Source: Mesostigma viride (lineage: Eukaryota > Streptophyta > Mesostigmatophyceae > Mesostigmatales > Mesostigmataceae). From it: 64,000 nucleotides of DNA. Location of the stretch: positions 438,501-502,500 of the forward strand of contig RPFO01002176.1 of assembly GCA_009746045.1 (NCBI GenBank), given 5' to 3'. This document shows positions 14,547-64,000 of the stretch, piece after piece (the stretch's first letter is position 1; each line of letters opens with the position of its first letter). The notes beneath the pieces are model-generated. The model had not been told where the DNA came from and ran no database searches. It saw nothing but the letters and a program-made list of their open reading frames with translations. A program made the translations under genes and the position numbers.

Positions 14547-17500
14547 ATGGCATCCATGTCGCACCGTAACGTCGTCGCTTTACTGACATTTCTGGTTGCA
14601 GCCGTCTACGTAGGCGCTGAATCGCATGACATCCTCGAATGTCACGGCTCGGGTACGACCAACCCCAGCAAGCTGTTCTGGAAAGTGCTCTCACTTATGG
14701 AGGAGCGCATTGCCCTGCCCGTGAAGCTCACGTACCGGGCGGTGGGTTCTGGAGTTGGGCAGACCGAGTTTGTAAACAATGGCACCGAGCCTCTGAACGA
14801 TTTTGGTTCGGGAGACATCCCCCTGACTCAAGCGAATTGGGAAATTCTGAACGGGGTGGGAATGGTCCATGTCCCCTTCATGCTGGGGGCCATCTCGTTC
14901 TTCCACAGCGTGGATGCTGCACCGAACTTGAATCTGACCGCCTGCCTATTGTCAGGCATTTTCCAGAGGATTATCACCCGGTGGGACGACCCTGACATCT
15001 TGGCAGTGAACCCGTCGCTGAAAGTGCCAGCAGGGCAGAACATCACCGTGGTGCATCGCGGTCTGGGTTCCAGCAGCACCTCCGTCATGTCTTTATACTT
15101 GTCGCGGGCATGCATTTCCTCCAGGTTCAACTGGACCATCGGCGTTGGCTCGGGCGGCCTTGGGCCCAATGACCTTCCGCGCTGGCCCAGCGACACGGTT
15201 GTCGCGGAAGGCTCCGGGGGTGTTTCCGACTACATTGATCAGCACCCGTACACCATTGGGTGAGCACCACTCAGTCTTTGTTGTGCTACTTTCGTGCACG
15301 TTTTGCCTGGATGTTGAGAATAGGCCTGACGCAAAATGTTTTGTTAGATGAGTCAATTTGTCTTTCTCGGCATGCTTTGAAAGCCAGTAGGTTTGAAGGC
15401 TGGTTGCCGATGGAGGTTTGCCAGGAAGGGTAAGGGGGTTAAAGGCCCTGGGTGGTAACCAGCTAGTATTTTGGATGACATTATAATAAAAGTATAACTG
15501 GCACTGTTTTTTTTTCACTCAGTTTCGCTTCTTGCGACACTCTAGGATTGTTATTGTAATAGGTCATTGTCATACAATTCCACAGGATTGATACAACCCC
15601 AAGTCGGTGGGGGTGAAACGTGTGAACAAATGTGGTAAAAGTATCGATTCGGGACGGGTCGCCCACCACCCCACAACTGTTGTTTAGATAGGCGCCCATT
15701 CCATTCCACCCATTGGACTTTCGCTCACGTGACAGCAGACTACGTCACTATAATTAATTAATATAATGCCATACTGTCGTGTCATTGATTGTTGAACCCT
15801 TGTTAAGTTTCTAGATTTGTCGCACGTTTCTCAAACTTGACCGTATTGTGGTACTGCAGTGTTGACTTTCGTTTCGTGCTTCTTGTCGTCGTCGTCGTCG
15901 TCGTCGTCGTTGTTGTTGTTGTTGGTTGCGTTGTTGACCCTTGGTTGATATGTTGTCATACTGCTGTTAGGCAGAATGCGGTACCGGGTGAGCATGGATG
16001 GGCACATGGCAGAGGATGGCCCTACCTCTGGACCTCATCTGCTAGATCCTGGCGTTGCCCACTTGCGCGGTCGATGCGCAACCTGGGTGCATCGACGTGC
16101 ATGCCGAGGCGGGCCAAGGAATGGCTTGGTACTTATTATTGCTTGATGATGTACACAGCCTGACCAAATAGCTTCTTTTTACTGTGCTGAAACCAGATAT
16201 TTGGGCGTCTTGTTTATCTTATTCTTCCTTGATCACATTACGAACAGGTACGTGGAGGCAGGCCATGGCCTGACGCTGGGCCTGAACGAGGTGGCGTTGA
16301 GGAATAGGGACGGTGTTTTCCTCACGTCGAGCCAGGTGTGTGTGCCCACCCTCCAATTTGCTGCACGAAATCTTTTCCCCTAACCTCCAATTCATCTGCA
16401 ACTTGTTGCCTGTTTGATTTGGGGTAGTGTGCCCTGACAACCAGGTATGGGGGGAAATGTCATTATGCCTGGACGAATGCACATGGTTTTTTGGGAACAG
16501 TTGGTCAGACGTAACTGGGTACTTTCATGCCGACCTCATGGTCCTCACGGTAGGTAACTCGTGCCACTTTTAAGTAATTGTGATGAAACATAAGCGGATA
16601 AGATGACAACAGGCTCGAGCTGCCATGATCCGGACTCTCCAGATTTCTGGCCTGCGCTGGTTGTCTCACTGATCATGTGGTGTTGTATCCACAGCACCAA
16701 AGATAGTCATACCTCTCCTTTGCCTGCCCGTTGGTTTGCCTGCAACCCCTGTGTTTCATTTCATCTGCATTTATCACTGTTCTCCTGATCCTCCGTCACC
16801 TCCCCCAGGCGGACATTGCGGCTGCTGCCAGCGGCGAATTCCCTGCCGCGGATGCCAACTGGGCGGCGGTGGACGTGGTGGACCGCGAGGGGGCAAACGT
16901 GTGGCCCATGACCGCCTTCACCTTCCTGTACATCCGGAAGGTACGAGATACCACAAGGTGGACACACTAAAGTAGCAAGTTTACTCTGCACTAGTGATGC
17001 TATAATGCTATACTAGATTAATTTATATTTGTTGGTTCTCAGAAGCACAATTGGCGCGATGATGTGTGCTTCAGACCCCTGTCTCAAATGTTGTGTCAGC
17101 CCCGGTCTCAATGATACGTCAGGCCCTGTCTCATTGATGTGTCAGGGCAGTCAGGCCCTGTCTCAGTCGCGTGTTGCACATCAGTTGTTTTATTTAAAAA
17201 GCTTTTGATAGAAAGGAGGTAAAGGGCTGTTAATGTAGCGTCTGCATAGCTGCTTTCATTCATTGCGCCGTCCATTTTCATGGGATTAGGTGCCCTGTAA
17301 ATGCTCGATGGAGGCATGGGAGCGGTCACTAGCTGTAAGAAACACATGGTGGCCATGTGAGTTCGGACGCCTTAGTCCAAATCAGTGTTTGGAGCCTCTT
17401 GTAGCATGTCCTTGTGATGTAGGGGGGGGAAGCCATCTTGTTGCCTTGCAGTCAGGCTGGGGTGATGCAGGCCGACGAAGCCGGCCTTATGGGTGCAACA

Positions 17501-20500
17501 TCCCATCTACTGGTCGTTGGGTAGGTTGCATCTTCAGTTCTCCTGCAAGTGGCAACCTGCCGGCGCAGCCCCTGTATTGCCTGCACTGGGGACAAGTGTC
17601 TATATGTGCTGGTTTGAAAGTGGAAGTGTATTAAGTGAAGATGAGGCTGAATAATCAGCAGCTTTCAGTCAGAAGTTCTGCTGCCGAGTGTTGTTTCATG
17701 GCCAGCTGTCTAGACTTTTGGGCAGTGATTGTAGCTGCTGCTGTGGTAGAGGGCTAGCCCAAGGAAGATGTGCGGTGAAGGGGCTTGTTGCACCTGGGCA
17801 AGGTAGACTTAGCATGAATTGTAATTATTGGCACACTTAAACCTAACAATGGGCGGACATGAACCAAGAAGGAAGAATAGCCACTTTCTCGACGATAGGG
17901 AAGGTTAGACAGTGTGGTATATTTTCTTGCCATTCATTCGCCAGACTTACCAGAGCGGCATGTATCCATGGCTCTTCAAATCTGGTTGTTGGCTGCAGAA
18001 TCTGACAAGCAAGGGCGAGGCGGGCCCGCTGACCAAGGCGTTTGCCAGGTTCCTGCTGAGCCCTGAGGGCCAGGCGATGACGACACAATATGGGTTCGAG
18101 CCCGCGCCCCCAGAGGTAGGTGTGCCTTTTGACATCTTGGCAGAGAGGCACTTAGTACACTGAGCCCGGATCAGAGGCGCCAGTATGAGTAGCTGGTATG
18201 TTTGTCTTCTATCTTTCAATATTCGCATGGACTGGATTGAAACTCGCCAAAAAACATGGGGACAGGGTGACGCGTTCCCATTTACAGCATCGCTTGCAGA
18301 AGATAGTAATGAGCTGCAGCGCATTAGTGGAGAGGGTGCCCCTGTCATCTGTCAGGAAGTGCTGTTGCTGGGATACTGGGATTGGACAACGCATTGATTT
18401 TTGTCATGACAGGTTATTGGCCGTGTGTCTGCAACTATCTAGTATTTGTTGCCAGATTTTTTTTTCGGGCATCCATGCAATAACATAGCTGATGGTTGGA
18501 ATTGTGTGTTCACCTACCTACCGTTCTTCTATGATGACTAGTTTGTTATATTTCATTTCGGGGAACACGTCATCAGATTGCTTGATGCCCTTGAATGAAA
18601 CTGTGACAGAAAATTGGCGTAAGAAACTAGTTCTGTCACTTGGCCTGTCCTTTATATAAGCCGGGGCCTGTCCTTTAAGTGTGGTTGTTAGAGAGGAATC
18701 ATGTTGACTTGCTTTGGTAACATGTAACCTTTTGGGTCGCGAATTTTGGGTCTCATTAGAATCTGAAGTGTTTTCATTTAATGTTGGAAAGCATCCGTCA
18801 GGCATGGTTTAGGCATCTGCCAAGTTAGTTTGTTCAATGTGCATGTCGTCCAGATGTTAAGTACACTTAATGCAAAGTGGTGAGTTTGGCCTTCGAGGCC
18901 CAGCCAGCTTTGATGGTTTCCCTCTATGCTATAGTCTCTCTACATTCCAGCACTCATTTCTTCTGTGTAGAATACGCTGGCTTCTTCATGGTTTGGCTTG
19001 AAGATTTTCTTTCTCGTCATCATAATGAGCCAGCTGACCTCTCTCGCTTCCTTTTTAGTAACGAGAAACTTCATTTTTTTTTTCTCTGTAACTCTCCTGC
19101 CCTTTCTGCCCAGATTGTGACCCTTGCTCTGGCCGGCGTGAATGCGCTCGAGCTGGATACAACCATCCCTGAGTGGCAGATCGAGGTGCTGGGGGTGACA
19201 CCGCTGGCCGCACTGCCAGGAGCGCGCATCATCAGTGACAAGCGCCGCTCGTACGCCAACATGGCCCTGGATGAGATCCACGCTCAGCTGGGCACAGTCC
19301 ACCTGCCGGACCTGCAGGTATGCCCGCGAAGCACTTTTACAGTCTGGAAAATGCGTTCATTTTCTTGGTGGAATTCCTTTTTGAAGGCATTTGTCCCCCC
19401 GCATAGTCAGATTTAAGGTGGAGGATCGGTAAATACCCCACCTGCCAGGTGGTTTTCCGACCCATCATACCTAGCGACCTTCAAAGGGTGCAATAGCCCA
19501 TTCTAAAGGCCTTGAAAAAGAATCTAGGAGCGCGTGTACGACACAAAACTCATGCAGTAATTTGGTTTGTAGGTAGTAACTGCTGAACAGTAAAAAAATA
19601 GCAAGAACGGCCCCAAAAGGTACCTGCCAAAATATTTACTCAGATATTCTTGGACGAGCTTGTTGGGTCGTTCAAAGAGATGAATCCTACCCAAACCCAC
19701 GTCACACAGAGAAGATTTGCTATTTTTTAGGGTGCCAAATCTGCTTGGGGGGGAATTTCTGGCCCTAAAATCAAGAACTTGAGCTAGCCACCTCTAAAAA
19801 TCAGGCTAAATGCATAGGCTAACTTCAAATGAATGATGTTAGTTGGATGCAAAAGAACAGTCCTCCAAACAATTTTGTGCTTATGCCAGGGTGCGCAAGT
19901 TGCAAAACCCATGAAAGTGGTGAAAATTTTCACCCCCCAAACAATCAAAATTTTGAGCTAGCCACGTCCAAAGTACTCGGGTTTTCGAACACAGTCCATT
20001 CATGGCAAAGTATCTCAAAAAAGTCACTGGGGGTGCCCCTTTGTGGCTAAGACGGGTCGTTTTGTCCCAGAGCTAGCCAAGGAGCTACCAAGCGCAGGAT
20101 TATTCTGTTTGCATGTCGTACTTGAGTTCGTGATACCCTCTGCGATCTTTACTTTGCGCTATCGCGAGCTTCGAACGGACTTGCCTAGATAGAGGTGTAC
20201 CAGGTCATTCACGTCTTAAGCTGTCCTATTTACCATTCCTCCACCTTGATTTCATTTGTTGTCATACGAAAAGTTTCAACCAGGTTTGTGCCAAACTCTA
20301 CTGGATTTGAATCCTCATGGTGAGCACCTACTTACTAGGATGAGTCGGGCACGAAAGGGACTTGGCAGAGCCAAACGGTCTTTATGGCTGTATATTAGGC
20401 GATGCGTTGCCCCTACTGTTCACCAAAAGCTCCCACCAGGGTGGAAGCCCACGTTTTTCCGAGCACCTCTGGCTGCCTTGGTCATGGCCGTAAGGCCACA

Positions 20501-23500
20501 ACTGAACAGGTTCATTCCTTGATTAACAGACACATGGCAAGCACTGCATTTGAGCCTATATTATTACGCAGACGTATCTTTTTTTTTTTTCGTGCGTCCC
20601 ATGTTGACTTTCCCTGTCCCTTCTACGCAGACGTATCTTCTTTTTTTCGTGCGTCCCATGTTGACTTTCCCTGTCCCTTCCCATTTTATTACGTCACATC
20701 TTCTTGCACGCAGGAACGTGTCGTAAAGTTGGAGGAAGAGCAAACCAGCGACAACGTCTTCCATGACGTCCTCGAGTGCCACGGGTCGGGCACCACCAAC
20801 CCCAGCAAGCTCTTCTGGAAGGTGCTGTCCCTGCTGGAGGAGCGCATGGCGCTCCCCGTGAAGCTGACCTACCGCGCAGTGGGGTCGGGGGTGGGGCAGA
20901 CCGAGTTTGTCAACGGGGGCCAGGAACCGCTGAACGACTTTGGGTCGGGAGATATCCCCTTGACCCAACGGAACTGGGATGTGCTGAATGGGACGGGCAT
21001 GGTTCACGTGCCGTTCATGCTGGGGGCGATCTCGTTTTTCCACAGCGTGGAGGATGCACCTGACTTGAACCTGACTGCGTGCCTGCTGTCGCGCATTTTC
21101 CAACGGGACATCACCCAGTGGGATCATCCTGACATCCTGGCAGTGAACCCGTCCCTGATTGTGCCAGCAGGGCAGCCCATCAAGGTGGTGCATCGTGGGC
21201 TGGGTTCCAGCAGCACCTCTGTGATGTCGTTATATTTGTCGCGGGCATGCAGCACGTTCAACTGGACCATCGGTGTGGGCTCGGGCGGCCTTGGGCCCAA
21301 TGACCTGCCGCGCTGGCCCAACGACACGTACACCGCGGAGGGCTCTGCCGGTGTTTCTGACTTCATCAACGAGCACACGTACACGATTGGGTAAGCTTGC
21401 CCCATGCCTCTGAAGTGCCCCCAGTGTCACTGGCCGCATGGCAGCTACATTTGCACTTCAATATGTTTCCTTGGTGCCATCCAGTCCACTGGATCCGCTT
21501 GTTTCAAGGCAATATTTGTTTTTTGGTAAACATAGGGTATGCTTAGTGTGGAAGCCAGCTAGACAAATATATACTGGTTGAGCAGCTTGCGCTGGAATGG
21601 GTGGGCTGATGGCTGCTTCTGTCCCCTTTTTGTAAAGCCAGCCAGCCCTTTGGCATGATTGGAATGAGTTTGGAATTATGGTGTTGCCATAACTATCTGT
21701 TGTGCTGAAATCTGATACCGTTGCACCTTGTTTATCTTATTCTTCCTTGATCACGTTACGAACAGGTACGTGGAGGCAGGCCATGGCCTGACGCTGGGCC
21801 TGAACGAGGTGGCGTTGAGGAACAGGGCCGGTGTCTTCCTCAAGTCGAGCCAGGTCAGTGGGCTGCTTGGGTCATTAGGACCATGTTTGCTTGCACCGTG
21901 AAGCACACATCGATTAGCACAAGATTAGTCAAGCGGCTTTGCTCCATGAATCCTACTGTGGTCATTGGTATCCCCCCCCCCCCCCCGGCTCAACTGGTGA
22001 TGCGAGGAGGGTGTCTGAGGCAATTTTGTCTGGGACAGTAAGCATTTTGAGCGTATTCCATTTTTCGCTCTGCTGCATATCAACGCACTTCAACCTTTGT
22101 TTATTTGGTCTGTCGCTAAAGAGAGGTTGGGACTTTCGGAGCGAATATTAGGATTAAGCAAACAGTTAACAGAAAAAAATTTGCCGAAATAGAAAAATTC
22201 TTCTGAAGATTTCTAGAAGAATTCTAAAGATTCATTTGCAGATCGCGTTTTTCCGCGTTTTCCGCGGACCGGCACTGAACGCAAATGGTTTTCACCTTTG
22301 CGGCGTGCCAAATCAGAAAATTTCTCTTCCAGCGAAGCCAGAGAGTAACTTTTCATCCGCATCAGGAAAGCTTAAACCATAGTAAGGAAAAAGAACTCCT
22401 TGCTGGGTTTTTCCAAGCTCATCCATGTCTTCTAAGAAATAGACATCTCTAGCATTTTTTGAAGGAGCTAGTCCACAAGAATATGCATCATGGAATTATG
22501 TTTGACTATTGAATAGAATCCTCCACGTCTTTCAGAGATGAAAGAACAGGACGCAGCTATAGAAGAAAGTTATTTTAAATATAACATTAATTTTGTAATA
22601 GGACATTAATTTTCCCGCATTTTTCATTTCATTTTTTTGCAAATATCAAAACATATGGAGTATCGGAAACGCTGCAGTTCCTTAAACGTATTTTTTTTCT
22701 TGAAATGCCGTTTTACTCATTTTAGATTTTTTTTTTTTACGATGGTGGCACTGTGTGAGACCAACCGGGTTTACACCATTCATGAACTACGCCAGTTGGC
22801 GCTGACGTTAAACACCCTCCTTGGACATTGTTTGTTCGAGGCTGAATATTATAGCACATTTTCTGTGATAATGTTTAAAGAGCAGATAACGGCAGGCTCG
22901 AGCTACCATGGTCCGGATTCTCCGATTTCTGGCCTGCGCTGGTTGTCTCCTTGATAATGTTTAAAGAGCATGAAGCTGTTCTTTTTCTTTGAAACTCGAT
23001 CTTAGAAATCTTCTTTCTTCAAGTGGAAGTATATATGTCTGTGTATGTGTGATGCCTTTTTTTCCCAATCTTCTCTTCATGGGAAAAGGGAAATGACCTA
23101 GCCAACATGTCTGAAATGCAAGTCTTTTTTGTAGACTTTCAAAATTATTACAAATTTTATCTATTAGCATTGTGGACATGAAGTTGTTCAGCATTGTGGA
23201 CATGAAGTTGTGTTTTTAGTGGTGTGTTTTCAGTATTTGATAAAAACAATCCTTTTCATACAGGTTTCTGGTTTCGCTGTATACTTGAAACGGGTGAGCC
23301 TTGCAAGGTATTTCATGAGACATTCCTAGGTTGTCTCACACGCTATCTTTACTGTCAATATATTTTGTCATCTAACAACAAAGAAAGTGACGCATCAAAC
23401 CCCTCACCATGTGTGTTGTCAATTCCCTCCTACCCTTGTGTCACCTCCCCCAGGCGGACATTGCGGCAGCTGCCAGCGGCGAATTCCCTGCCGCAGATGC

Positions 23501-26500
23501 CAACTGGGCGGCGGTGGACGTGGTGGACCGCGAGGGGGCAAACGTGTGGCCCATGACTGCCTTCACCTTCCTGTACATCCGGAAGGTACGAGATACCACA
23601 AGGTGGACCTTCCTGCAGCAGCATACTGCAGTGACACTCCTCTGTTGGCCAGGCCTACCAAACGGGAATGAAAAGATTGTATCTGTCGGACATATTTGGT
23701 ATAGGTAGATGCCTGGACAGCCGCAGAAATGCTGGGGGAGGGGCAGGAGGGGGACTTTACAGTCTAGTATTAAGTGAGACAACTGTTCTATATCGAGTAA
23801 AGAAGAATCTTCATCAGTTGTCGCGGGTGGTAGCTGGATGCGCCCTGGCATGCCAGTGTTTTTCTTTGTTCTACAACTGGTGTGCAGGAAGGCTGAAGAA
23901 TGAGCATGTACTCAATGTTGGGATAGCAGCATGGTGGTATCTAGTAGATACACGTGACCACCGTGTGTTGAATTTATATGTGCCGGACTAGACACGTGGA
24001 CATTCATTATTCCCCGCTTTCTTTTTATGGAAGGCACGACGTGTGTTAGTGAGGAGTCTGTCGATTGTGTTTGAAGTGCGGGATTGTTTGGCTTTGCACC
24101 GATGTTGGCCACGTGCAGGACCTGAGGAGCAAGGGCGAGGGGGGCCCGCTGACCAAGGCATTTGCACGATTCCTGCTAAGCCCGGAGGGCCAGGCGATGA
24201 CGACACAGTATGGATTTGCGCCCGCGCCACCCTCGGTAAGCCCTCCTTCCTGTCTAACAAGGCATTTTCTATTCCATGTATTTGGGCCGCTGGAGTCGGT
24301 AGCTTCAATTTGCTTTAAATGGCTCCCTCAAATGTGGCTCCTGACATTCGGCGTGACCTCCGGATCTTGAGCTCCTGGCAATCGGGGGCGCCGTGCGACC
24401 TGACCTTCACCGCGTACCAACCTTCCTCCCCCCTCGCGCCTGGTTGCCTCTGGATTCTTCCACAACACCATGACCTGCTGGCGTTCCCCCATGCCTCGTT
24501 GTCGGTCCCCTTGTTCCCACCAGATCCTGGCCATCGCCAGCGCCGGCTTGGACATGCTGCAGCTGGACCCCTCGCTCCCCGAGTGGCAGATCGAGGTGCT
24601 GGGGGTGACGCCGCTGGCCGCGCTGCCGGGAGCGCGCATCATCAGTGACAAGCGCCGCTCGTACGCCAACCTGGCGCTGGATGAGGTTCACGCGCAGCTG
24701 GGCACGGTCCACGTGCCGGACCTGCAGGTATGCCCGCATAGCACTTTTACATGTCTGGAAAATGCGTTCATTATTTTGGTGGGATTCCCTTTTGGAAGAC
24801 ATTTGCCCCAACATATAGTCACATTTGATTTCATTTGTTGTCATACAAAAAGTTTCAACCAGGTTTGTGCCAAACTCTACTGGATTTTAATCCTCATGGT
24901 GAGCACCTACTTACTAGGATGAGTGGGGCACGAAAGGGACTTGGCGGAGCCAAACGGTCTTCGTGGCTGTATATTAGGCGATGCGTTGCCCCTACTGTTC
25001 ACCAAAAGCTCCCACCAGGGTGAAAGCCCACGTTTTTCCGAGCACCTCTGGCTGCCTTGGTCATGGCCGTAAGGCCACAACTGAACAGGTTCATTCCTTG
25101 ATTAACAGACACATGGCAAGCACTGCATTTGAGCCTATATTATTACGCAGACGTATCTTTTTTTTTTTCGTGCGTCCCATGTTGACTTTCCCTGTCCCTT
25201 CTACGCAGACGTATCTTCTTTTTTTCGTGCGTCCCATGTTGACTTTCCCTGTCCCTTCCCATTTGATTACGTCACATCTTCTTGCACGCAGGAACGTGTC
25301 GTAAAGTTGGAGGAAGAGCAAACCAGCGACAACGTCTTCCATGACGTCCTCGAGTGCCACGGGTCGGGCACCACCAACCCCAGCAAGCTCTTCTGGAAGG
25401 TGCTGTCCCTGCTGGAGGAGCGCATGGCGCTCCCCGTGAAGCTGACCTACCGCGCCGTGGGGTCGGGGGTGGGGCAGACCGAGTTTGTCAACAGGGGCCA
25501 GGAACCGCTGAACGACTTTGGGTCGGGAGATATCCCCTTGACCCAACGGAACTGGGATGTGCTGAATGGGACGGGCATGGTTCACGTGCCGTTCATGCTG
25601 GGGGCGATCTCGTTTTTCCACAGCGTGGAGGATGCACCTGACTTGAACCTGACTGCGTGCCTGCTGTCGCGCATTTTCCAACGGGACATTACCCAGTGGG
25701 ATCATCCTGACATCCTGGCAGTGAACCCGTCCCTGATTGTGCCAGCAGGGCAGCCCATCAAGGTGGTGCATCGTGGGCTGGGTTCCAGCAGCACCTCTGT
25801 GATGTCGTTATATTTGTCGCGGGCATGCAGCACGTTCAACTGGGCCATCGGTGTGGGCTCGGGCGGCCTTGGGCCCAATGACCTGCCGCGCTGGCCCAAC
25901 GACACGTACACCGCGGAGGGCTCTGCCGGTGTTTCTGACTTCATCAACGAGCACACGTACACGATTGGGTAAGCTTGCCCCATGCCTCTGAAGTGCCCCC
26001 AGTGTCACTGGCCGCATGGCAGCTACATTTGCACTTCAATATGTTTCCTTGGTGCCATCCAGTCCAATGGATCCGCTTGTTTCAAGGCAATATTTGTTTT
26101 TTTGTAAACATAGGGTATGTTTAGTGTGGAAGCCAGCTAGACAAATATATACTGGTTGAGCAGCTTGCGCTGGAACGGGTGGGCTGATGGCTGCTTCTGT
26201 CCCCTTTTTGTAAAGCCAGCCAGCCCTTTGGCATGATTGGAATGAGTTTGGAATTATGGTGTAGCCATAACTATCTGTTGTGCTGAAATCTGATACCGTT
26301 GCACCTTGTTTATCTTATTCTTCCTTGATCACATTACGAACAGGTACGTGGAGGCAGGCCATGGCCTGACGCTGGGCCTGAACGAGGTGGCGTTGAGGAA
26401 CAGGGACGGTGTCTTCCTCAAGTCGAGCCAGGTCAGTGGGCTGCTTGGGTCATTAGGACCATGTTTGCTTGCACCATGAAGCACACATCGATTAGCACAA

Positions 26501-29500
26501 GATTAGTCAAGCGACTTAGCTCCATGAATCCTACTGTGGTCATTGGTATCCCCCCCCCCCCCCCCCCGGCTCAACTGGTGATGCGAGGAGGGTGTCTGAG
26601 GCAATTTTGTCTGGGACAGTAAGCATTTTTAGCGTATTCCATTTTTCGCTCTGCTGCATATCAACGCACTTCAACCTTTGTTTATTTGGTCTGTCGCTAA
26701 AGAGAGGTTGGGACTTTCGGAGCGAATATGAGGATTAAGCAAACAGTTAACAGAAAAAAAATTGCCGAAATAGAAAATTTCTTCCAGCGAAGCCAGAGAG
26801 TAACTTTTCATCCGCATCAGGAAAGCTTAAACCATAGTAAGGAAGAAGAACTCCTCGCTGGGTTTTTCCAAGCTCATCCATGTCTTCTAAGAAATAGACA
26901 TCTCTAGCATTTTTCGAAGGAGCTAATCCACAAGAATATGCATCGTGAAATTTGTTTGACTATTGAATAGAATCTTCCACGTCTTTCAGAGATCAAAAGA
27001 ATAGGATGCAGCTGTAGAAGAAAGTTATTTTAAATATAACGTTGATTTTGTAATAGGACATTCATTTTCCCGCATTTTTAATTTCATTTTTTGCGAATAT
27101 CAAAACATATGGAGTATCGGAAACGCTGCAGTTCCTTTCAAAAAAAAAAATTGAAATGCCGTTTTACTCATTTTAGATTTTTTAAAGATGGGCACTTTGT
27201 GTGAGACCAAACGGCTTTTACACCATTCATGAACTGTGCCAGTTGGCGCTGACGTTAGACACTCTCCTTGGACATTGTTAGCTCGAGGCTGAATACTAAA
27301 GCACATTTTATGTGATAATGTTTAAAGAGCATTAATCTGTTATTTTTCTTTGAAATTCGATCTTAGAAATCTTCTTTCTTCAAGTGGAAGTATATATGTC
27401 TGTGTATGTGTGATGCCTTTTTTTCCCAAATCTTCTCTTCATGTGAAAGGGTAATGACCTAGCCAACATGTTTGAAATGCAAGTCTTTTTTGTATACTTT
27501 CAAAATGATTACAAATTTTATCTATTAGCAAACGTGTTCAGCATTGTGGGCATGAAGTTGTGTTTTTAGTGGTGTGTTTTCAGTATTTGATAAAAACAAT
27601 CCTTTTCATACAGGTTACTGGTTTCGCTGTATATTTGAAACGGTTGAGCCTCGCAAGGCATTTCATGAGACATTCCTAGGTTGTCTCACACGCTATCTTT
27701 ACTGTCACTATATTTTGTCATCTAACAACAAAGAAAGTGGCACATCAAACCCCTCACCATGTGCGTTGTCCATGCCCTCCCATTTTGTCACCTCCCCCAG
27801 GCGGACATTGCGGCAGCTGCCAGCGGCGAATTCCCTGCCGCGGATGCCAACTGGGCGGCGGTGGACGTGGTGGACCGCGAGGGGGCGAACGTGTGGCCCA
27901 TGACCGCCTTCACCTTCCTGTACATCCGGAAGGTACGAGATACCACAAGGTGGACCTTACTGCAGCAGCATACTGCAGTAACACTCCTCTGTTGGCCAGG
28001 CCTACCAAACGGGAATGAAAAGATTGTATCTGTCGGACATATTTGGTATAGGTAGATGCCTGGACAGGCACAGAGATGCTGGGGGAGGGGCAGGAGGGGG
28101 ACTTAACAGTCTAGTATTAAGTGAGACAACTCTTCTATATCGAGTAAAGAAGAATCTTCATCAGTTGTCGCGGGTGGTAGCTGGATGCGCCCTGGCATGC
28201 CAGTGTTTTTCTTTGTTCTACAACTGGTGTGCAGGAATGCTGAAGAATGAGCATGTACTCAATGTTGGGATAGCAGCATGGTGGTATCTAGTAGATACAC
28301 GTGACCACCGTGTGTTGAATTTATATGTGCCGGACTAGACGCGTGGAAATTCATTATTCTCCGCTTTCTGTTTATGTAGGGCACGACGTGTGTTAGTGAG
28401 GAGTCTGTCGATTGTGTTTGAAGTGCGGGATTGTTTGGCTTTGCACCGATGTTGGCCACGTGCAGGACCTGAGGAGCAAGGGCGAGGGGGGCCCGCTGAC
28501 CAAGGCCTTTGCACGATTCCTGCTGAGCCCGGAGGGCCAGGCGATGACGACACAATACGGATTTGCGCCCGCGCCACCCTCGGTAAGCCCTCCTTTCTGT
28601 CTAACAAGGCATTTTCTATTCCATGTATTTGGGCCGCTGGAGTCGGTAGCTTCAATTTGCTTTAAATGGCTCCCTCAAATGTGGCTCCTGACATTCGGCG
28701 TGACCTCCGGATCTTGAGCTCCTGGCAATCGGGGGCGCCGTGCGACCTGACCTTCACCGCGTACCAACCTTCCTCCCCCCTCGCGCCTGGTTGCCTCTGG
28801 ATTCTTCCACAACACCATGACCTGCTGGCGTTCCCCCGTGCCTCGTTGTCGGGCCCCTTGACCCCACCAGATCCTGGCCATCGCCAGCGCCGGCTTGGAC
28901 ATGCTGCAGCTGGACCCCTCGCTCCCCGAGTGGCAGATCGAGGTGCTGGGGGTGACGCCGCTGGCCGCGCTGCCGGGAGCGCGCATCATCAGTGACAAGC
29001 GCCGCTCGTACGCCAACCTGGCGCTGGATGAGGTTCACGCGCAGCTGGGCACGGTCCACGTGCCGGACCTGCAGGTATGCCCGCATAGCACTTTTACATG
29101 TCTGGAAAATGCGTTCATTATTTTGGTGGGATTCCCTTTTGGAAGACATTTGCCCCAACATATAGTCACATTTGATTTCATTTGTTGTCATACGAAAAGT
29201 TTCAACCAGGTTTGTGCCAAACTCTACTGGATTTGAATCCTCATGGTGAGCACCTACTTACTAGGATGAGTGGGGCACGAAAGGGACTTGGCGGAGCCAA
29301 ACGGTCTTTATGGCTGTATATTAGGCGATGCGTTGCCCCTACTGTTCACCAAAAGCTCCCACCAGGGTGAAAGCCCACGTTTTTCCGAGCACCTCTGGCT
29401 GCCTTGGTCATGGCCGTAAGGCCACAACTGAACAGGTTCATTCCTTGATTAACAGACACATGGCAAGCACTGCATTTGAGCCTATATTATTACGCAGACG

Positions 29501-32500
29501 TATCTTTTTTTTTTTCGTGCGTCCCATGTTGACTTTCCCTGTCCCTTCTACGCAGACGTATCTTCTTTTTTTCGTGCGTCCCATGTTGACTTTCCCTGTC
29601 CCTTCCCATTTGATTACGTCACATCTTCTTGCACGCAGGAACGTGTCGTAAAGTTGGAGGAAGAGCAAACCAGTGACAACGTCTTCCATGACGTCCTCGA
29701 GTGCCACGGGTCGGGCACCACCAACCCCAGCAAGCTCTTCTGGAAGGTGCTGTCCCTGCTGGAGGAGCGCATGGCGCTCCCCGTGAAGCTGACCTACCGC
29801 GCCGTGGGGTCGGGGGTGGGGCAGACCGAGTTTGTCAACAGGGGCCAGGAACCGCTGAACGACTTTGGGTCGGGAGATATCCCCCTGACCCAACGGAACT
29901 GGGATGTGCTGAATGGGACGGGCATGGTTCACGTGCCGTTCATGCTGGGGGCGATCTCGTTTTTCCACAGCGTGGAGGATGCACCTGACTTGAACCTGAC
30001 TGCGTGCCTGCTGTCGCGCATTTTCCAACGGGACATCACCCAGTGGGATCATCCTGACATCCTGGCAGTGAACCCGTCCCTGATTGTGCCAGCAGGGCAG
30101 CCCATCAAGGTGGTGCATCGTGGGCTGGATTCCAGCAGCACCTCTGTGATGTCGTTATATTTGTCGCGGGCATGCAGCACGTTCAACTGGACCATCGGTG
30201 TGGGCTCGGGCGGCCTTGGGCCCAATGACCTGCCGCGCTGGCCCAACGACACGTACACCGCGGAGGGCTCTGCCGGTGTTTCTGACTTCATCAACGAGCA
30301 CACGTACACGATTGGGTAAGCTTGCCCCATGCCTCTGAAGTGCCCCCAGTGTCACTGGCCGCATGGCAGCTACATTTGCACTTCAATATGTTTCCTTGGT
30401 GCCATCCAGTCCACTGGATCCGCTTGTTTCAAGGCAATATTTGTTTTTTTGTAAACATAGGGTATGTTTAGTGTGGAAGCCAGCTAGACAAATATATACT
30501 GGTTGAGCAGCTTGCGCTGGAATGGGTGGGCTGATGGCTGCTCCTGTCCCCTTTTTGTAAAGCCGGCCAGCCCTTTGGCATGATTGGAATGAGTTTGGAA
30601 TTATGGTGTAGCCATAACTATCTGTTGTGCTGAAATCTGATACCGTTGCACCTTGTTTATCTTATTCTTCCTTGATCACATTACGAACAGGTACGTGGAG
30701 GCAGGCCATGGCCTGACGCTGGGCCTGAACGAGGTGGCGTTGAGGAACAGGGACGGTGTCTTCCTCAAGTCGAGCCAGGTCAGTGGGCTGCTTGGGTCAT
30801 TAGGACCATATTTGCTTGCACCATGAAGCACACATCGATTAGCACAAGATTAGTCAAGCGACTTAGCTCCATGAATCCCACTGTGGTCATTGGTATCCCC
30901 CCCTCCCCCCCCGGCTCAACTGGTGATGCGAGGAGGGTGTCTGAGGCAATTTTGTCTGGGACAGTAAGCATTTTTAGCGTATTCCATTTTTCGCTCTGCT
31001 GCATATCAATGCACTTTAACCTTTGTTTATTTGGTCTGTCGCTAAAGAGAGGTTGGGACTTTCGGAGCGAATATGAGGATTGAGCAAACAGTTAACAGAA
31101 AAAAAATCGTTGAAATAGAAAAATTCTTCCAGCGAAGCCAGAGAGTAACTTTTCATCAGCATCAGGAAAGCTTAAACCATAGTAAGGAAAAAGAACTCCT
31201 TGCTGGGTTTTTCCAAGCTCATCCATGTCTTCTAAGAAATAGACATCTCTAGCATTTTTTGAAGGAGCTAATCCACAAGAATATGCATCGTGAAATTTGT
31301 TTGACTATTTAATAGAATCTTCCACGTCTTTCAGAGATGAAAGAACAGGACGCAGCTATAGAAGAAAGTTATTTTAAATATAACGTTGATTTTGTAATAG
31401 GACATTCATTTTCCCGCATTTTTCATTTCATTTTTGCAAATATCAAAACATACGGAGTATCGGAAACACTGCAGTTCCTTAAACGTTTTTTTTTATTAAT
31501 GCCGTTTTACTCATTTTAGATTTTTTAAAGATGGGCACGTTGTGTGAGACCAAACGGCTTTTACACCATTCATGAACTGTGCCAGTTGGCGCTGACGTTA
31601 AACACCCTCCTTGGACATTGTTTGTTCGAGGCTGAATATTATAGCACTTTTTCTGTGATAATGTTTAAAGAGCATTAATCTGTTCTTTTTTTTAGAAATT
31701 CGATCTTAGAAATCTTCTTTCTTCAAGTGGAAGTATATATGTCTGTGTATGTGTGATGCCTTTTTTTTCCCAATCTTCTCTTCATGTGAAAAGGGGAATG
31801 ACGTAGCCAACATGTTTGAAATGCAAGTCTTTTTTGTAGACTTTCACAATGATTACAAATTTTATCTATTAGCAAACGTGTTCAGCATTGTGGGCATGAA
31901 GTTGTGTTTTTAGTGGTGTGTTTTCAGTATTTGATAAAAACAATCCTTTTCATACAGGTTTCTGGTTTCGCTGTATATTTGAAACGGTTGAGCCTTGCAA
32001 GGCATTTCATGAGACATTCCTAGGTTGTCTCTCACGCTATCTTTACTGTCAATATATTTTGTCATCTAACAACAAAGAATGTGGCACATCAAACCCCTCC
32101 TAATGTGTGCTGTCCATGCCCTCCTACCCTTCTGTCACCTCCCCCAGGCGGACATTGCGGCAGCTGCCAGCGGCGAATTCCCTGCCGCAGATGCCAACTG
32201 GGCGGCGGTGGACGTGGTGGACCGCGAGGGGGCCAACGTGTGGCCCATGACCGCCTTCACCTTCCTGTACATCCGGAAGGTACGAGATACCACAAGGTGG
32301 ACCTTCCTGCAGCAGCATACTGCAGTAACACTCTGTTGGCCAGGCCTACCAAACAGGAATGAAAAGATTGTATCTGTCGGACATATTTGGTACAGGTAGA
32401 TGCCTGAACAGCCGCAGAAATGCTGGGGGGGGGACAGGAGGGGGGCTTGACGATCGAGTGTAATAGAATCTTGATCAGTTCTTGCAGGTCCTTGCCGCAG

Positions 32501-34437
32501 GTGACCGTATCAGCGTTTTGCGCCGTTCTACTATAGGTGTGGGTGATGGCTAAAGAACGAGCATGTACTCAGTGTTGGGCTAGCAGCATTGTGGTATTTA
32601 GTTTACGCGTAATCACCGTGTGCTTTGGTGTATATGTGCCGAGCTAAGCCTCGTGAAAATGCAACTTGGCTTTTTTTCTCCATGTTGGCCACACGCAGGA
32701 CCTGAGGAGCAAGGGCGAGGGGGGCCCGCTGACCAAGGCGTTTGCACGGTTCCTGCTGAGCCCGGAGGGCCAGGCGATGACGACGCAATACGGGTTTGAG
32801 CCCGCGCCACCCTCGGTAAGCACTCTTTCCTGTGTAACTTGGCGTTTTCTAGTCCATGTATTTGGGCAGCTGGTGTCGGTACCTTCACTCCGTTATAAAT
32901 GGCCCCTTCAACTGTGGCTGCGAAAGTCCATGGCAATCACGGAAGATTGTCATAGGTACGTAGTCGTTGTAATCTGTGGTTTGTTCACAGGTAGGTAGCG
33001 GTTGAGTCTGCACTGGCCCATTCCCTCCCCCCTCTCGCCGTGCGACCTGACCTGCACCGCGTACCAACCTTCCTCCCCCTCGCGCCTGGCTGCCTCTGGA
33101 TTCACCCACGATGCCATGACCTGCTGGCGTTCCCCTGTGCCTCGTTGTCGGTCCCCTTGTTCCCACCAGATCCTGGCCATCGCCAGCGCGGGCTTGGACA
33201 TGCTGCAGCTGGACCCCTCGCTCCCCGAGTGGCAGATCGAGGTGCTGGGGGTGACGCCGCTGGCCGCGCTGCCGGGAGCGCGCATCATCAGCGACAAGCG
33301 CCGCTCGTACGCCAACCTGGCGCTGGATGAGGTTCACGCGCAGCTGGGCACGGTCCACGTGCCGGACCTGCAAGTAAGGACGGAGAGGGGGGTTTTGTCC
33401 CTTTTTTTTCCAGCGTGGGGGCAGAGGGGGGGGGGTTGGACTCTGCGCTCGTGATGATGCTTGTTGCGCCTGCGTTGTTAATAACCATTTTTAATGCCCC
33501 AGTTTGAATTGTAAGGTACAGTGATGTTGCTTGAGGCCAAGCGGAGGAGCACATGGGGCGTGTTGGCGAGATCGATGGCCGGATGCATTGGCGGCCAGGG
33601 GTGGCGGTTCCAGTACGGACTTGATGGAGACTAAATGGAGTAGCCGTTTATACTGGAGCAGCCGTTTATACTAGAGGCGATTGGTTGCAGAGCGGGAACG
33701 GACCTGGTGGGTGCCTCAGATATTGAACTTTCCAAGGCATTTTCCTCATACCACTCGACTGGTCATCTGCACCCCTGGAGACCAAACATGCTCTTTCTGG
33801 CCCCTTGATAGAATCCTACCAGGTTTCTAGACCATTACTTAAGACCTCTTCTCCTTTTTTTCTGAAGCAAGGAGGCCTACAACGGCTTGTTCTAGATCCC
33901 TCCTGCCTTCCCCACCCGTCCCCTCCACCACCATTGCCACTGTAACTTCATCCCCCCCTCCCTTTCTCCCCCCACCACCTCCCCGGTTCCCCCCCTCCCC
34001 CTCCTTTCCTTCACCCTCCCCCTTGCCACCGCCCTCCCACTCGCCTCCCTTTCGCCCTCCCCCTCCCCTCCCACCTCCTTTTCCCCTCCTCCCCCCACCA
34101 GGCACGCATCCTGGAACTTGAAACTGCGCTGGCCGCCCTCCGCCAGCAAGTGGCCGCCCTCAGCCCCAACAATGCCACTACTAGTGATGACGATGACGAC
34201 GACGACGACGGGAGTGGTGACGGCGAGACCCCCGGCATGGCGCGGGTGAACGCGGCGCTCGCCCTGGCCATCATCGGCACTGCGCTCTCGCTGCTGCTCC
34301 TGATGGCCATGCTGGCGGCGAACCGCTCTGTCCACCGTGAAATGCGGCACATGAACCACGCGTTTGCGGCGGCGGTCACCCCCAGCATCCACAGCGCGCA
34401 CAGCTTCCGCGTCGCCGGGAACGGGATGCACGTGTAG
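14547..34437 (+). CDS. Four-domain PstS-like phosphate-binding membrane protein
   Basis: A single 21-exon gene for a 1747-residue type I membrane protein. Exons: 14547-15259, 16248-16335, 16809-16940, 17999-18115, 19114-19317; 20714-21390, 21766-21853, 23454-23585, 24119-24235, 24524-24727; 25292-25968, 26344-26431, 27801-27932, 28466-28582, 28871-29074; 29639-30315, 30691-30778, 32148-32279, 32699-32815, 33170-33373; 34102-34437. All are GT-AG and every module starts and ends in phase 0, so the four modules read through. Residues 1-26 are a signal peptide (HRNVVALLTFLVAAVYVG). Each module is a PstS-like type II periplasmic-binding fold: GSGTTNPSKLFW, YRAVGSGVGQTEF, FGSGDIPLT, VVHRGLGSSSTSVMSLYLS, YVEAGHGL, VWPMTAFTFL and a C-terminal stalk. 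The role is inferred: extracellular phosphate binding. The start is the first Met; the upstream TTG is not used. Confidence 0.88.
15700..15767 (+). mobile_element. MITE-like fragment in PstS-like intron 1
   Basis: CATTCCATTCCACCC...GCTCACGTGAC...ACTACGTCAC...ATTAATTAAT resembles one arm of the palindromic element at 40135-40352 in motif order, and the fragments at 55375 and 58440. It is short and diverged, so family membership is probable rather than certain. Confidence 0.45.
15882..15926. repeat. (TCG)n(TTG)n microsatellite
   Basis: A run of TCG triplets passing into TTG triplets inside the first intron of the PstS-like gene. The valine-rich reading frame over it is an artefact. Confidence 0.9.
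17067..17172. repeat. ~28-bp imperfect repeat in PstS-like module 1 intron
   Basis: CCC(C/T)(T/G)GTCTCA followed by a variable stretch ending GT(G/A)TCAG occurs four times between exons 3 and 4 of module 1. Confidence 0.7.
19415..20247. mobile_element. 833-bp TIR transposon, non-autonomous
   Basis: The ends are terminal inverted repeats: AAGGTGGAGGATCGGTAAAT on the left and the complement of AAGGTGGAGGAATGGTAAAT on the right. It lies in the module 1-2 linker intron. The homologous introns at about 24820 and 29165 are uninterrupted (CACATTTGATTTCATTT), so they serve as empty sites. GATTT borders both ends, but whether this is a target duplication is unclear. No transposase frame is present. 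Confidence 0.85.
20571..20692 (+). repeat. ~58-bp duplicate in linker intron (three loci)
   Basis: ACGCAGACGTATCTT, a T-run, then CGTGCGTCCCATGTTGACTT occurs twice in tandem just upstream of the module acceptor. The same pair recurs at 25146-25260 and 29493-29607. It contains an acceptor-like TACGCAG twice, about 135 and 75 bp before the acceptor actually used. Confidence 0.85.
20714..24727 (+). repeat. Module 2 of the PstS-like gene (residues 419-824)
   Basis: Five exons of 677, 88, 132, 117 and 204 bp, the same lengths as in modules 3 and 4. It begins after the linker acceptor with ERVVKLEEEQTSDNVFHD, a charged spacer that replaces the signal peptide of module 1. NGGQEP and NRAGVFLKSSQ distinguish it. 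Its second intron keeps an 85-bp and a ~125-bp segment that modules 3 and 4 lack. Confidence 0.87.
25292..29074 (+). repeat. Module 3 of the PstS-like gene (residues 825-1230)
   Basis: Exon lengths are identical to module 2 and the protein is nearly identical; NRGQEP and NWAIGVG (Ala for Thr) are its own or shared marks. Introns match module 4 almost base for base, apart from a variable poly-C tract (26551-26567). Confidence 0.87.
29639..33373 (+). repeat. Module 4 of the PstS-like gene (residues 1231-1636)
   Basis: Same exon lengths as modules 2 and 3. In the phosphate-loop motif it reads RGLDSSSTS, where the others have RGLGSSSTS; bacterial PstS has an Asp at the equivalent place. The intron before its fourth exon diverges after about 32440, and it ends with DLQ encoded by CAA followed by GTAAGG, leading to the anchor exon. 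Confidence 0.87.
34102..34437 (+). other. Anchor exon: coiled coil, poly-Asp, TM helix, tail
   Basis: The last exon of the PstS-like gene, 111 residues (1637-1747). RILELETALAALRQQVAAL is a short amphipathic heptad helix. NNATTS with a run of eight Asp and GSGDGETPG follows, then a hydrophobic helix ALALAIIGTALSLLLLMAML (about 1688-1709), then a basic start NRSVHREMRHMNH and a 38-residue tail. A positive-inside reading places the tail in the cytosol and the four domains outside. Confidence 0.88.
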
Positions 34438-34557
34438 TGGCCGCCACGTGTGGCGGTAGCTCTCGCGCAGCAGCGATTGGCCGCCCTGTGTGGCGGTAGC
34501 TCTCGCGCAGCAGCGAGTGGCCGCCCTGTGTGGCGGTAGCTCTCGCGCAGCAGCGAT
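34438..34557 (+). repeat. Three 40-bp repeats just after the PstS-like stop codon
   Basis: TGGCCGCC(A/C)(C/T)GTGTGGCGGT followed by AGCTCTCGCGCAGCAGCGA occurs three times head to tail beginning one base after the stop. Each unit holds a CCGCC...GGCGG hairpin, so the 3' UTR would carry three small stem-loops. Confidence 0.9.
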
Positions 34558-34911
34558 CATTGTTGTAGCGAGTGCTGCCGGGCGCTCACAGCTGGGGCGG
34601 CGGCTCCAGCCAGCAAATCGTTGCTGGTCTCAAATTTTTTGTGAGGCAGTTTCTGCCGGTGACATTGCGAGTGCTGGCAGCCTCTTGCTGCCAGTGCGAG
34701 GCAGCGGTGGGTACTAGCTAGCGCTTCCGTCGATCAGGCCGGCGGGTGCTTTGCTTGTGACGGGATGCGTGAATTTACTCACCTTTTAGTCATGCGGTCC
34801 CGTTGGGGAGCCGCGGAGCACTAGCCCTGGGCAAGGGATGGGCGCAACGACAGGTCGTGCATATGTCATGCAGCACCGAAGGGGGGGTCTCTGAGGGGCT
34901 TGATCTTGGGA
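34558..34911. other. Spacer between the PstS-like gene and the minisatellite
   Basis: No exon was recognised. It contains GCGAGTGCTG/GCGAGTGCTGGCAGCC echoes and presumably the polyadenylation region of the PstS-like gene, though no clear signal can be named. Confidence 0.4.
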
Positions 34912-37212
34912 ATGCTGGTGGAACGCCTGCGACTGCTGGTGGAGCGCCTGCGACTGCTGGTTGAACGCCTGCGACTGTTGGTTGAACGCCTGCGACTGTT
35001 GGTTGAACGCCTGCGACTGCTGGTGGAACGCCTGCGACTGCTGGTTGAACGCCTGCGACTGCTGATGGAACGCCTGCGACTGCTGATGGAACGCCTGCGA
35101 CTGTTGGTTGAGCGCCTGCGACTGCTGGTTGAACGCCTGCGACTGGTGGTTGAACGCCTGCGACTGCCGGTTGAACGCCTGCGACTGTTGGTTGAACGCC
35201 TGCGACTGCTGGTTGAACGCCTGCGACTGCTGGTTGAACGCCTGCGACTGTTGGTTGAACGCCTGCGACTGCTGGTTGAACGCCTGCGACTGCCGGTTGA
35301 ACGCCTGCGACTGTTGGTTGAACGCCTGCGACTGCTGGTGGAGCGCCTGCGGCTGTTGGTTGAACGCCTGCGACTGCTGGTTGAACGCCTGCGACTGTTG
35401 GTTGAACGCCTGCGGCTGTTGGTTGAACGCCTGCGACTGCCGGTTGAACGCCTGCGACTGTTGGTTGAACGCCTGCGACTGCTGGTTGAACGCCTGCGAC
35501 TGCTGGTTGAACGCCTGCGACTGTTGGTTGAACGCCTGCGACTGCTGGTTGAACGCCTGCGAGTGCTGGTTGAACGCCTGCGACTGTTGGTTGAACGCCT
35601 GCGACTGCTGGTTGAATGCCTGCGACTGCTGGTTGAACGCCTGCGACTGTTGGTTGAACGCCTGCGACTGCTGGTTGAACGCCTGCGACTGTTGGTGGAA
35701 CGCCTGCGACTGTTGGTTGAATGCCTGCGACTGCTGGTTGAACGCCTGCGACTGCTGGTTGAACGCCTGCGACTGCTGGTTGAACGCCTGCGACTGCTGA
35801 TGGAACGCCTGCGACTGTTGGTTGAACGCCTGCGACTGCTGGTTGAACGCCTGCGACTGTTGGTTGAACGCCTGCGACTGCTGGTTGAATGCCTGCGACT
35901 GCTGATGGAACGCCTGCGACTGTTGGTTGAACGCCTGCGACTGCTGGTTGAACGCCTGCGACTGTTGGTTGAACGCCTGCGACTGCTGGTTGAATGCCTG
36001 CGACTGCTGGTTGAACGCCTGCGACTGTTGGTTGAACGCCTGCGACTGCCGGTTGAACGCCTGCGACTGCTGGTTGAACGCCTGCGACTGTTGGTTGAAC
36101 GCCTGCGACTGCTGGTTGAATGCCTGCGACTGCTGGTTGAACGCCTGCGACTGCTGGTTGAACGCCTGCGACTGTTGGTTGAACGCCTGCGACTGTTGGT
36201 TGAACGCCTGCGACTGCTGGTTGAACGCCTGCGACTGTTGGTTGAACGCCTGCGACTGTTGGTTGAACGCCTGCGACTGCTGGTTGAACGCCTGCGACTG
36301 CTGGTGGAACGCCTGCGACTGTTGGTTGAACGCCTGCGACTGCTGGTTGAACGCCTGCGACTGCTGGTTGAACGCCTGCGACTGTTGGTTGAACGCCTGC
36401 GACTGTTGATGGAACGCCTGCGACTGCTGGTTGAACGCCTGCGACTGCTGGTTGAACGCCTGCGACTGCTGGTTGAACGCCTGCGACTGCTGGTTGAACG
36501 CCTGCGACTGTTGGTGGAACGCCTGCGACTGCTGGTTGAACGCCTGCGACTGTTGGTTGAACGCCTGCGACTGTTGGTTGAATGCCTGCGACTGCTGGTG
36601 GAACGCCTGCGACTGCCGGTTGAACGCCTGCGACTGCTGGTTGAACGCCTGCGACTGCTGGTTGAACGCCTGCGACTGCTGGTTGAACGCCTGCGACTGT
36701 TGGTTGAACGCCTGCGACTGCTGGTTGAACGCCTGCGACTGCTGGTTGAGCGCCTGCGACTGTTGGTTGAACGCCTGCCACTGCTGGTGGAACGCCTGCG
36801 ACTGCTGGTTGAACGCCTGCGACTGCTGGTTGAACGCCTGCGACTGCTGGTTGAACGCCTGCGACTGCTGGTTGAACGCCTGCGACTGCTGGTTGAACGC
36901 CTGCGACTGCTGGTTGAACGCCTGCGACTGCTGGTTGAATGCCTGCGACTGCTGGTTGAACGCCTGCGACTGCTGGTTGAACGCCTGCGACTGTTGGTTG
37001 AACGCCTGCGACTGCTGGTTGAACGCCTGCGACTGTTGGTTGAACGCCTGCGACTGTTGGTTGAACGCCTGCGACTGCTGATGGAACGCCTGCGACTGTT
37101 GATGGAACGCCTGCGACTGTTGGTGGAACGCCTGCGACTGCTGGTTGAACGCCTGCGACTGCTGGTTGAACGCCTGCGACTGTTGGTTGAATGCCTGCGA
37201 CTGTTGTTTTAG
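34912..37212. repeat. 21-bp minisatellite, about 109 copies
   Basis: The unit is TTGAACGCCTGCGACTGCTGG, written here in two parts as TTGAACGCCTG and CGACTGCTGG. Because 21 is a multiple of three and only one frame contains stops, five of six frames stay open through the array: ERLRLLV and LNACDCW on the plus strand, QSQAFNQ, VAGVQPA and a Ser/Arg frame on the minus. The longest is an 876-codon minus frame (34786-37416) with unique sequence at both ends. The commonest variants (CTG/TTG, AAC/AAT-type) are silent in the QSQAFNQ frame. A protein is possible but unproven. Confidence 0.95.
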
Positions 37213-48104: not shown

Positions 48105-49018
48105 ACTGGGAAAATGGACACCAGTGTGTGCATCAGTCTGTGCTGTACCGCTGTGGCCCCAAGCCGCCGTTGGAGGCTAGTCGTGGGCTGAGCATCAACA
48201 TGTCCGCGCTGATCCTCGTGGCGGAGGCCAACGAGGCGGGGGAGACCCTCCGGCTGAGGCTGGAGGAGGACCCCAGTGCTGCGCCCTTGGCGCCCTCGCC
48301 GTGCTTCGAATCTCGGCAGGATCTGGAAGGTATGCATGCTGCATGTGACGATCGATGACCTCCATTTCACCCACTGTGCGTCGGTGGATGGGGTGAATCA
48401 GCAGCTAGATCGTGTTCAGGCTGCCTACGCCGCTGTTGGGCTGGTGCAGAAGTCTGACAAGGTGGTACGGGCGACAGCAGAGCAGACTGGTGTGCAGGCG
48501 GTGGGGGTCATTCACCAAAGAGATGGTGACGTGGTGCCTGTTCCTGAGCGTGTGGTGGCAGTTATCGCTGCTACTCATAGAATCTTAGATCGCGGGTTTA
48601 CATACTACCGCGAACTTAGTTCTGTGCTTGGGAAGTGGGTGTGGATGCATCTGCTGTGCCGCCCCATGCTTTCGGTGTGGTCTGAGACGTACCGGCTGCT
48701 AGCAGCCATGAATGCCTCCCTGCCTGGGCGCCGCTGGCGCCAGTCCCTGCGCGGGGGGCCCGCCAGGAGCTTCAGGCGGCGATCGACCTGGCCCCCTTTT
48801 TGAGGGCGGCCAGGGCCCGGCCCCTTTCTGACCGGGTCGTCGCAAGTGATGCGAGCGGCTCCGGCGGTGGGGTGGTCTATACAGGGACCTGCCTGGGGCC
48901 GATTGTGCCCGGCTGGCGACCCGGCGCGAAGCGCGGGGGTGGCGGACGACAGCTTTAACGTCTGGGGAGGACTGGGACCTGCAGCGCATGGAGGAGGGGG
49001 ACTACAGCCTGCTGGATA
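48105..49018 (+). pseudogene. DIRS reverse transcriptase 3' half and RNase H start
   Basis: HQSVLYRCGPKPP resumes the reverse transcriptase after motif B. VTIDDLHFTH is the catalytic DD motif C at about 48341-48370, followed by QLDRVQAAYAAVGLVQKSDK, the LGV-type region and LGKWVWMHLLCRPMLSVW. RNase H begins with VVASDASGSGGGVV, which carries its first Asp, near 48835. Frames change at about 48325 and 48790, so the ORF is broken. Confidence 0.75.

Positions 49019-62575: not shown

Positions 62576-64000
<1,425 letters not shown>

Follow-up and report, generated by a model that had tools for sequence, protein, structure and literature searches.

A predicted membrane-anchored protein with four PstS-type modules in Mesostigma viride, a member of a wider eukaryotic family

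What would a eukaryotic alga do with four phosphate-binding domains of a bacterial type strung together on a single membrane anchor? The question is raised by a gene on the plus strand, positions 14547-34437, of a 64,000-nucleotide stretch of the genome of Mesostigma viride, a single-celled green alga (contig RPFO01002176.1 of assembly GCA_009746045.1, forward strand 438,501 to 502,500), referred to here as the window. Phosphate is limiting in many waters; eukaryotic algae are usually described as users of symporters and bacteria as users of PstS with an ATP-binding cassette (ABC) transporter. The answer which we regard as rather probable is that the protein is a multivalent, outward-facing trap for inorganic phosphate (Pi) that feeds ordinary transporters, its array having grown by in-frame duplication with later gene conversion.

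The gene was re-annotated independently from the raw sequence. This gave 21 exons and 20 introns, all GT-AG, and the joined exons keep the frame throughout for 1747 codons followed by one terminal stop. The first-pass annotation, which had proposed one gene of 21 in-phase exons with no internal stop at the module borders, was thus reproduced. The predicted protein comprises, in order, a signal peptide, four PBP_like_2 (PstS-type) modules, a probably helical spacer, eight Asp, one transmembrane (TM) helix and a short tail:

14547-14618, plus strand: signal peptide (about residues 1-24), start of exon 1; from translation and N-terminal hydropathy
14619-19317, plus strand: module 1 (residues 25-418), exons 1-5; from translation and PF12849
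14547-15259, 16248-16335, 16809-16940, 17999-18115 and 19114-19317, plus strand: exons 1-5
19318-20713, plus strand: intron 5, the first module border, 1396 nt
20714-24727, plus strand: module 2 with linker ERVVKLEEEQTSDNVFHD (residues 419-824), exons 6-10; from translation and our own profile
25292-29074, plus strand: module 3 (residues 825-1230), exons 11-15; from translation and our own profile
29639-33373, plus strand: module 4 (residues 1231-1636), exons 16-20, with Gly changed to Asp in the phosphate loop (HRGLDSSST)
34102-34185, plus strand: first part of exon 21, spacer ARILELETALAALRQQVAALSPNNATTS (residues 1637-1664), probably helical
34186-34209, plus strand: eight consecutive Asp (residues 1665-1672)
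34252-34320, plus strand: TM helix, about residues 1687-1709; from hydropathy
34321-34437, plus strand: 38-residue tail, Arg/His-rich beside the membrane, and stop codon

Each module takes up five exons (713 or 677, 88, 132, 117 and 204 nt). Introns 5, 10, 15 and 20, which separate the modules from each other and the last one from the tail, are all in phase 0, so duplication or skipping of a whole unit leaves the frame intact. A profile built in this analysis found four full-length modules (residues 27-417, 435-823, 841-1229 and 1247-1635). Modules 2-4 are assigned by this profile only; module 1 is also matched by PF12849 (PBP_like_2) at 109.8 bits, above the gathering cut-off of 27, and by the PstS equivalog TIGR00975 at 157.9 bits, below the curated cut-off of 205. 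The repeated linker that had been noticed at first reading, ERVVKLEEEQTSDNV, occurs exactly three times in the protein.

The signal peptide and single TM helix of the first-pass annotation were also recovered, by hydropathy only, as was its poly-Asp run. The N-terminus has a maximum 19-residue Kyte-Doolittle value of 1.71 and the C-terminal helix, from residue 1689, a value of 2.55. The cleavage point was read from the sequence by eye and gives ESHDILECHGSG as the mature N-terminus. There are 18 glycosylation sequons against 9.1 expected, one of them just inside the membrane. The basic edge of the tail suggests, by its positive charge, the cytoplasmic side. An outward-facing type I protein agrees with this basic inner edge, the sequon excess, the signal peptide and the single C-terminal TM helix.

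A search with module 1 and the signal peptide matched 393 proteins at E <= 0.001 among 7997 candidates scored; among the matches listed (120 of the 393), diatoms, Chrysophaeum taylorii and Emiliania huxleyi are named. With the full-length query, 23 long proteins were found, among them those of Cymbomonas tetramitiformis, Polarella glacialis, Cladocopium goreaui and Diplonema papillatum, a Bigelowiella model and a symbB model. PstS-like repeats with a C-terminal TM helix, which the first-pass annotation had recommended looking for, are present in other algae. In a set of 144 (143 listed database proteins and the window protein), 118 have one full module, seven have none, seven have two, seven have three, four have four and one has six. 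A hydrophobic helix follows the last module in 108 of the 144, and a number of the others are cut short at a module or soon after it. The motif GSGTTNP is present in 118 of the 144, several entries being fragments. Each Mesostigma module carries CHGSGTTNPSK and SDKRRSY, both in conserved columns of the family, and the protein has the traits of this unnamed family: the GSGTTNP start, the SxKR extension, a signal peptide, a spacer and a C-terminal TM helix. The anchored four-module protein belongs to a broader eukaryotic family, most of which is undescribed. Of the original idea of a surface-anchored multivalent binder, the PstS-type modules and single anchor fit, but the implied uniqueness does not, since proteins with one to six modules occur in several algae and in Diplonema.

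The closest counterparts in layout are of two kinds. The single-module TM proteins P0012 (environmental), P0029 (Chrysophaeum), P0041 (Nitzschia), P0065 (Grammatophora) and P0097 (Emiliania) share GSGTTNP, SxKR and the C-terminal helix with the Mesostigma protein but have one module rather than four; these proteins are uncharacterised, and P0029 and P0097 as deposited have no strong N-terminal hydrophobic stretch (0.91 and -0.48). Tandem modules with a C-terminal helix are found in P0122 (Cymbomonas, six modules), P0129 (Polarella, three), P0130 (MMETSP0359, three), P0133 (Bigelowiella, two) and P0139 (Diplonema, two). The Cymbomonas modules are, like those of Mesostigma, nearly identical among themselves, but the modules of all five proteins cluster apart from the Mesostigma modules. 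Kelch-type Pfam domains are listed alongside the PstS-type modules in Diplonema papillatum P0139 and in P0128 and P0132.

Bacterial PstS (TIGR00975, PF12849) is the substrate-binding protein of the Pst ABC transporter, a single domain that is soluble or lipid-anchored. It shares its fold with the Mesostigma modules and probably most of its core pocket residues (see below); the Mesostigma protein differs in its four domains, TM anchor, spacers and conserved SxKR extension after the PstS fold. DING and human phosphate-binding proteins were weaker matches than PstS and begin with DINGGG, which the Mesostigma protein lacks, and the Mesostigma gene is nuclear with 20 introns. Phytotransferrin and the triplicated transferrin of algae are surface-held, sometimes multi-lobed nutrient binders and offer an analogy only; family and nutrient are different. 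No description of a tandem or TM-anchored PstS in eukaryotes was found in the literature searched, most subscription journals lying outside it. The transporter table of a 2011 diatom paper marks PstS as prokaryotic in origin and 'SP' (PMC3237598).

Recent bacterial contamination is ruled out by the 20 introns and by the relatives, all of which are eukaryotic where named (most are listed without a name). Close viral or prokaryotic relatives were sought by scanning viral_contigs and genome_contigs for the family motifs, and none of the 43 and 35 stretches found encodes a relative at E 1e-3; these scans bear on the family-specific motifs only, not on PstS at large. A tblastn search of phages gave 55 records of distant PstS, the best among the matches listed at 28%.

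A maximum likelihood tree was built from 76 modules of 41 of the proteins. In it the modules of Mesostigma come together as a single clade of four (100/100). Modules (all, or all but one, of those in the tree) also cluster by protein in Cymbomonas, P0131, P0123, P0124, P0128, P0132 and P0139 with starred support, and in Bigelowiella (80/93) and P0127 (96/76) without it. In four dinoflagellate-type proteins the first modules cluster together, apart from modules 2 and 3 of their own proteins; the modules of P0125 and P0126 cluster by position, and modules 2 and 3 of Polarella are sisters. Given these groupings, the dinoflagellate-type and P0125/P0126 duplications are older. Clustering by protein may reflect either separate multiplication or homogenisation, and the conversion tracts in the Mesostigma gene (see below) suggest that homogenisation does occur. 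The number of modules may have been raised more than once within the family.

How did the Mesostigma array arise? The count of four PstS-like modules in the first-pass annotation holds for this assembly; the modules are not equal. Modules 2-4 differ at 3-4 of 406 residues per pair (99% identical; synonymous divergence, dS, 0.03-0.05 by NG86), modules 2 and 3 sharing 403 of 406. Module 1 differs from them at 49-50 of 392 residues (87% identical), with a nonsynonymous divergence (dN) of 0.08 and a dS of 0.48-0.49 (NG86) or 0.75-0.80 (YN00). As dN is well under dS, purifying selection is indicated, which is not expected of chance open frames. The repeat spacing in modules 2-4 is 4347-4578 bp. Between these modules, introns 1-4 diverge by about 1-19%, and introns 2-4 also vary in length: intron identity is 93-99% for modules 2 and 3 and falls to 81-82% when introns 3 and 4 of module 4 are compared with those of the others. 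Introns 10 and 15 (564 nt) are shortened relatives of intron 5, 88% identical to it and 99% to each other. Because their introns diverge by up to 19% despite near-identical residues, modules 2-4 are distinct paralogues; re-use of one unit by the assembler is ruled out by the same intron 1-4 differences.

Over exons 2-3, modules 1 and 2 are mismatched at only 7 of 220 sites, compared with 190 of 998 for exons 1, 4 and 5 (Fisher p 6e-11), and the intron edges that flank these two exons are almost the same in both modules as well. These gene-conversion-like tracts bear the signature expected of that process. The array would have begun as one module, extended by in-frame tandem duplication of the five-exon unit with phase-0 ends, and gene conversion would have followed the duplications.

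The module count itself has a competing account, in which the living gene has three modules and the fourth reflects allelic variation, a copy-number difference or the assembly, extra modules being nearly neutral and arising by unequal crossing over. The full-protein search returned P0121 (jgi/Mesvir1/12664/Mv02212-RA.2), a Mesostigma viride model of 1341 residues with three modules. This is the window protein minus exactly 406 residues, or one module; as all remaining residues are identical it represents the same gene, and the gap can be opened behind any of residues 665-987. The shorter version may stem from another assembly, a splice form or a choice made in gene modelling. The near-identity of the introns of modules 2 and 3 also favours three modules, as would, should the window come from that assembly, the read length of the published NIES-296 genome: its PacBio reads have an N50 of 11.2 kb, less than the 13 kb of the array, and were combined with Illumina reads and optical maps (PMC6947507). 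The second published Mesostigma viride genome, of CCAC 1140, is described as a short-read one (PMC7027972). On the other side, modules 2, 3 and 4 can each be told apart, module 4 by its introns 3-4, so that the window sequence holds four distinct units, and a 406-residue loss would also result from skipping exons 8-12, 9-13, 10-14 or 11-15, all in frame (options derived from the exon lengths and the possible range of the deletion). The suspicion that modules were collapsed or rearranged is therefore answered in part: intron divergence argues against artificial duplication, but a deposited three-module version exists. We consider a three-module living gene possible but doubtful.

The structural comparison with PstS that had been proposed was run on a homologue and bore out the likeness. 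In the model of P0012, 311-318 residues were aligned at 2.4-2.7 Å in the 15 best matches of the fold comparison, whose first 38 entries all bear titles of phosphate binders, a very strong match of this model to the PstS fold. Its equivalent of the spacer is a long helix (419-480) and that of the TM segment a helix at 509-538. The two-module model of Bigelowiella P0133 is weak (pLDDT 67.5, pTM 0.45); it has an inter-module helix (456-481), and the arrangement is not trustworthy. For the pocket, we take the PstS phosphate contacts to be T10, F11, S38, D56, R135, S139, G140 and T141, and matched them to the modules by sequence alignment. All four modules keep T10, S38, D56, R135 and S139 unchanged; they have Ser at T141 and G140 and Asn at F11. 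Among the 76 modules of the tree, D56 is Asp or Glu in 73 and a gap in three, and R135 is present in all.

The layout is well supported; Pi binding and hand-over to transporters are predicted from it. Four venus-flytrap domains would lie outside the cell, joined by short spacers to one membrane anchor, each module binding orthophosphate. A single anchor could then raise the local Pi concentration around the usual phosphate transporters of the plasma membrane, or Pi might travel inwards with internalised membrane. The proposal includes no ABC permease partner, and no PstC, PstA or PstB domain was found in the 20 open reading frames (ORFs) of the window, out of 189 listed, that were scanned with Pfam. 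In Baltic metatranscriptomes, reads assigned to pstS accounted for 92% of the transporter transcripts of Chlorophyta in summer, which the authors link in that account to dissolved inorganic P below 0.3 uM (PMC13086504). These field data agree with a trap and do not prove it.

Alternatively, the protein could be a phosphate sensor or receptor, in which the modules close on their ligand and this movement is relayed into the cell by way of the stalk and membrane helix. Bacterial signalling does use binding proteins of the PstS-type fold, and a single TM helix with a stalk, a long helix in the P0012 model, would suit this role. The cytoplasmic tail, though, has just 38 residues, a Pfam search of the 111-residue C-terminal part gave nothing at E 0.1, and four near-identical sites would suit capture better than graded sensing. 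A sensor seems unlikely.

Several observations weigh against the trap. As to binding, localisation and expression, the prediction draws on sequence and a homologue model. No endocytosis signal of the common types was seen by eye in the tail. The Baltic reads were assigned by KEGG orthology (KO) number, none being tied to the Mesostigma gene, and the authors describe the seasonal changes in eukaryotes as statistically non-significant (PMC13086504).

The PHR1/PSR1-type motif, which we take to be GNATATNC, occurs seven times in the window against 9.05 expected, with no site upstream of the gene. With a total not above chance and none upstream, PHR1-type regulation is without support. The sites at 22479, 26934 and 31279 (GAATATGC), in intron 2 of modules 2, 3 and 4, are a by-product of duplication.

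The pocket also differs from that of PstS: at F11, 70 of the 76 modules have Asn and six a gap, at G140, 75 have Ser, and module 4 has Asp at Gly138, possibly a weakened site. As the F11 and G140 changes run across the family, affinity or ligand could differ. The main ligand might then be another oxyanion or a phosphorylated compound (phosphonate, arsenate, pyrophosphate or phosphoester) rather than orthophosphate. The loss of D137, which is Asp in only four of the 76 modules, adds to the changes that set the family apart from E. coli PstS. D56 and R135 are kept, however, E. coli D137 variants have been crystallised with phosphate (PDB titles), and phosphate binders fill the top of the fold comparison, which makes another ligand very unlikely. 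A molybdate-type ligand was rejected, as ModA folds came far lower in that comparison.

Elsewhere in the window, a 40-bp repeat in three copies (34438-34557) lies directly 3' of the stop codon, and a 21-nt minisatellite of 109 copies (34913-37203) just downstream of the gene. On its minus strand the minisatellite lies within 896 stop-free codons (34786-37476) and reads (FNQQSQA)n; other frames are also long and open, and this is a candidate coding sequence only. The remaining features are:

3687-4319, minus strand: ORF with part of a glucose-6-phosphate dehydrogenase C-terminal domain (Pfam)
48959-50293: ORF of 444 codons whose Phage_integrase (tyrosine recombinase) match is weak and falls short of the Pfam cut-off, possibly a mobile element
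60712-61746, minus strand: ORF with an adenylate/guanylate cyclase catalytic domain match (Pfam)
62570-64000: GA- and GAGAGC-type simple repeats, about 1.4 kb, at the window end

The novelty lies in finding tandem growth, gene conversion and a possible three/four-module difference together in a deep streptophyte, and in the hint that this module was multiplied more than once. Tentatively, algae and some protists could share a general Pi-acquisition device, a membrane-anchored PstS-type antenna working with no ABC permease, whose module number was raised independently in different lineages and perhaps varies within species. If so, module number would tune the capture sites per anchor. An anchored PstS-type family across eukaryote groups points to a surface-capture step that would be directly measurable. 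In Mesostigma, a deeply branching streptophyte alga, the near-identical phase-0 exon units would offer a tractable case of how domain arrays grow by unequal crossing over and gene conversion.
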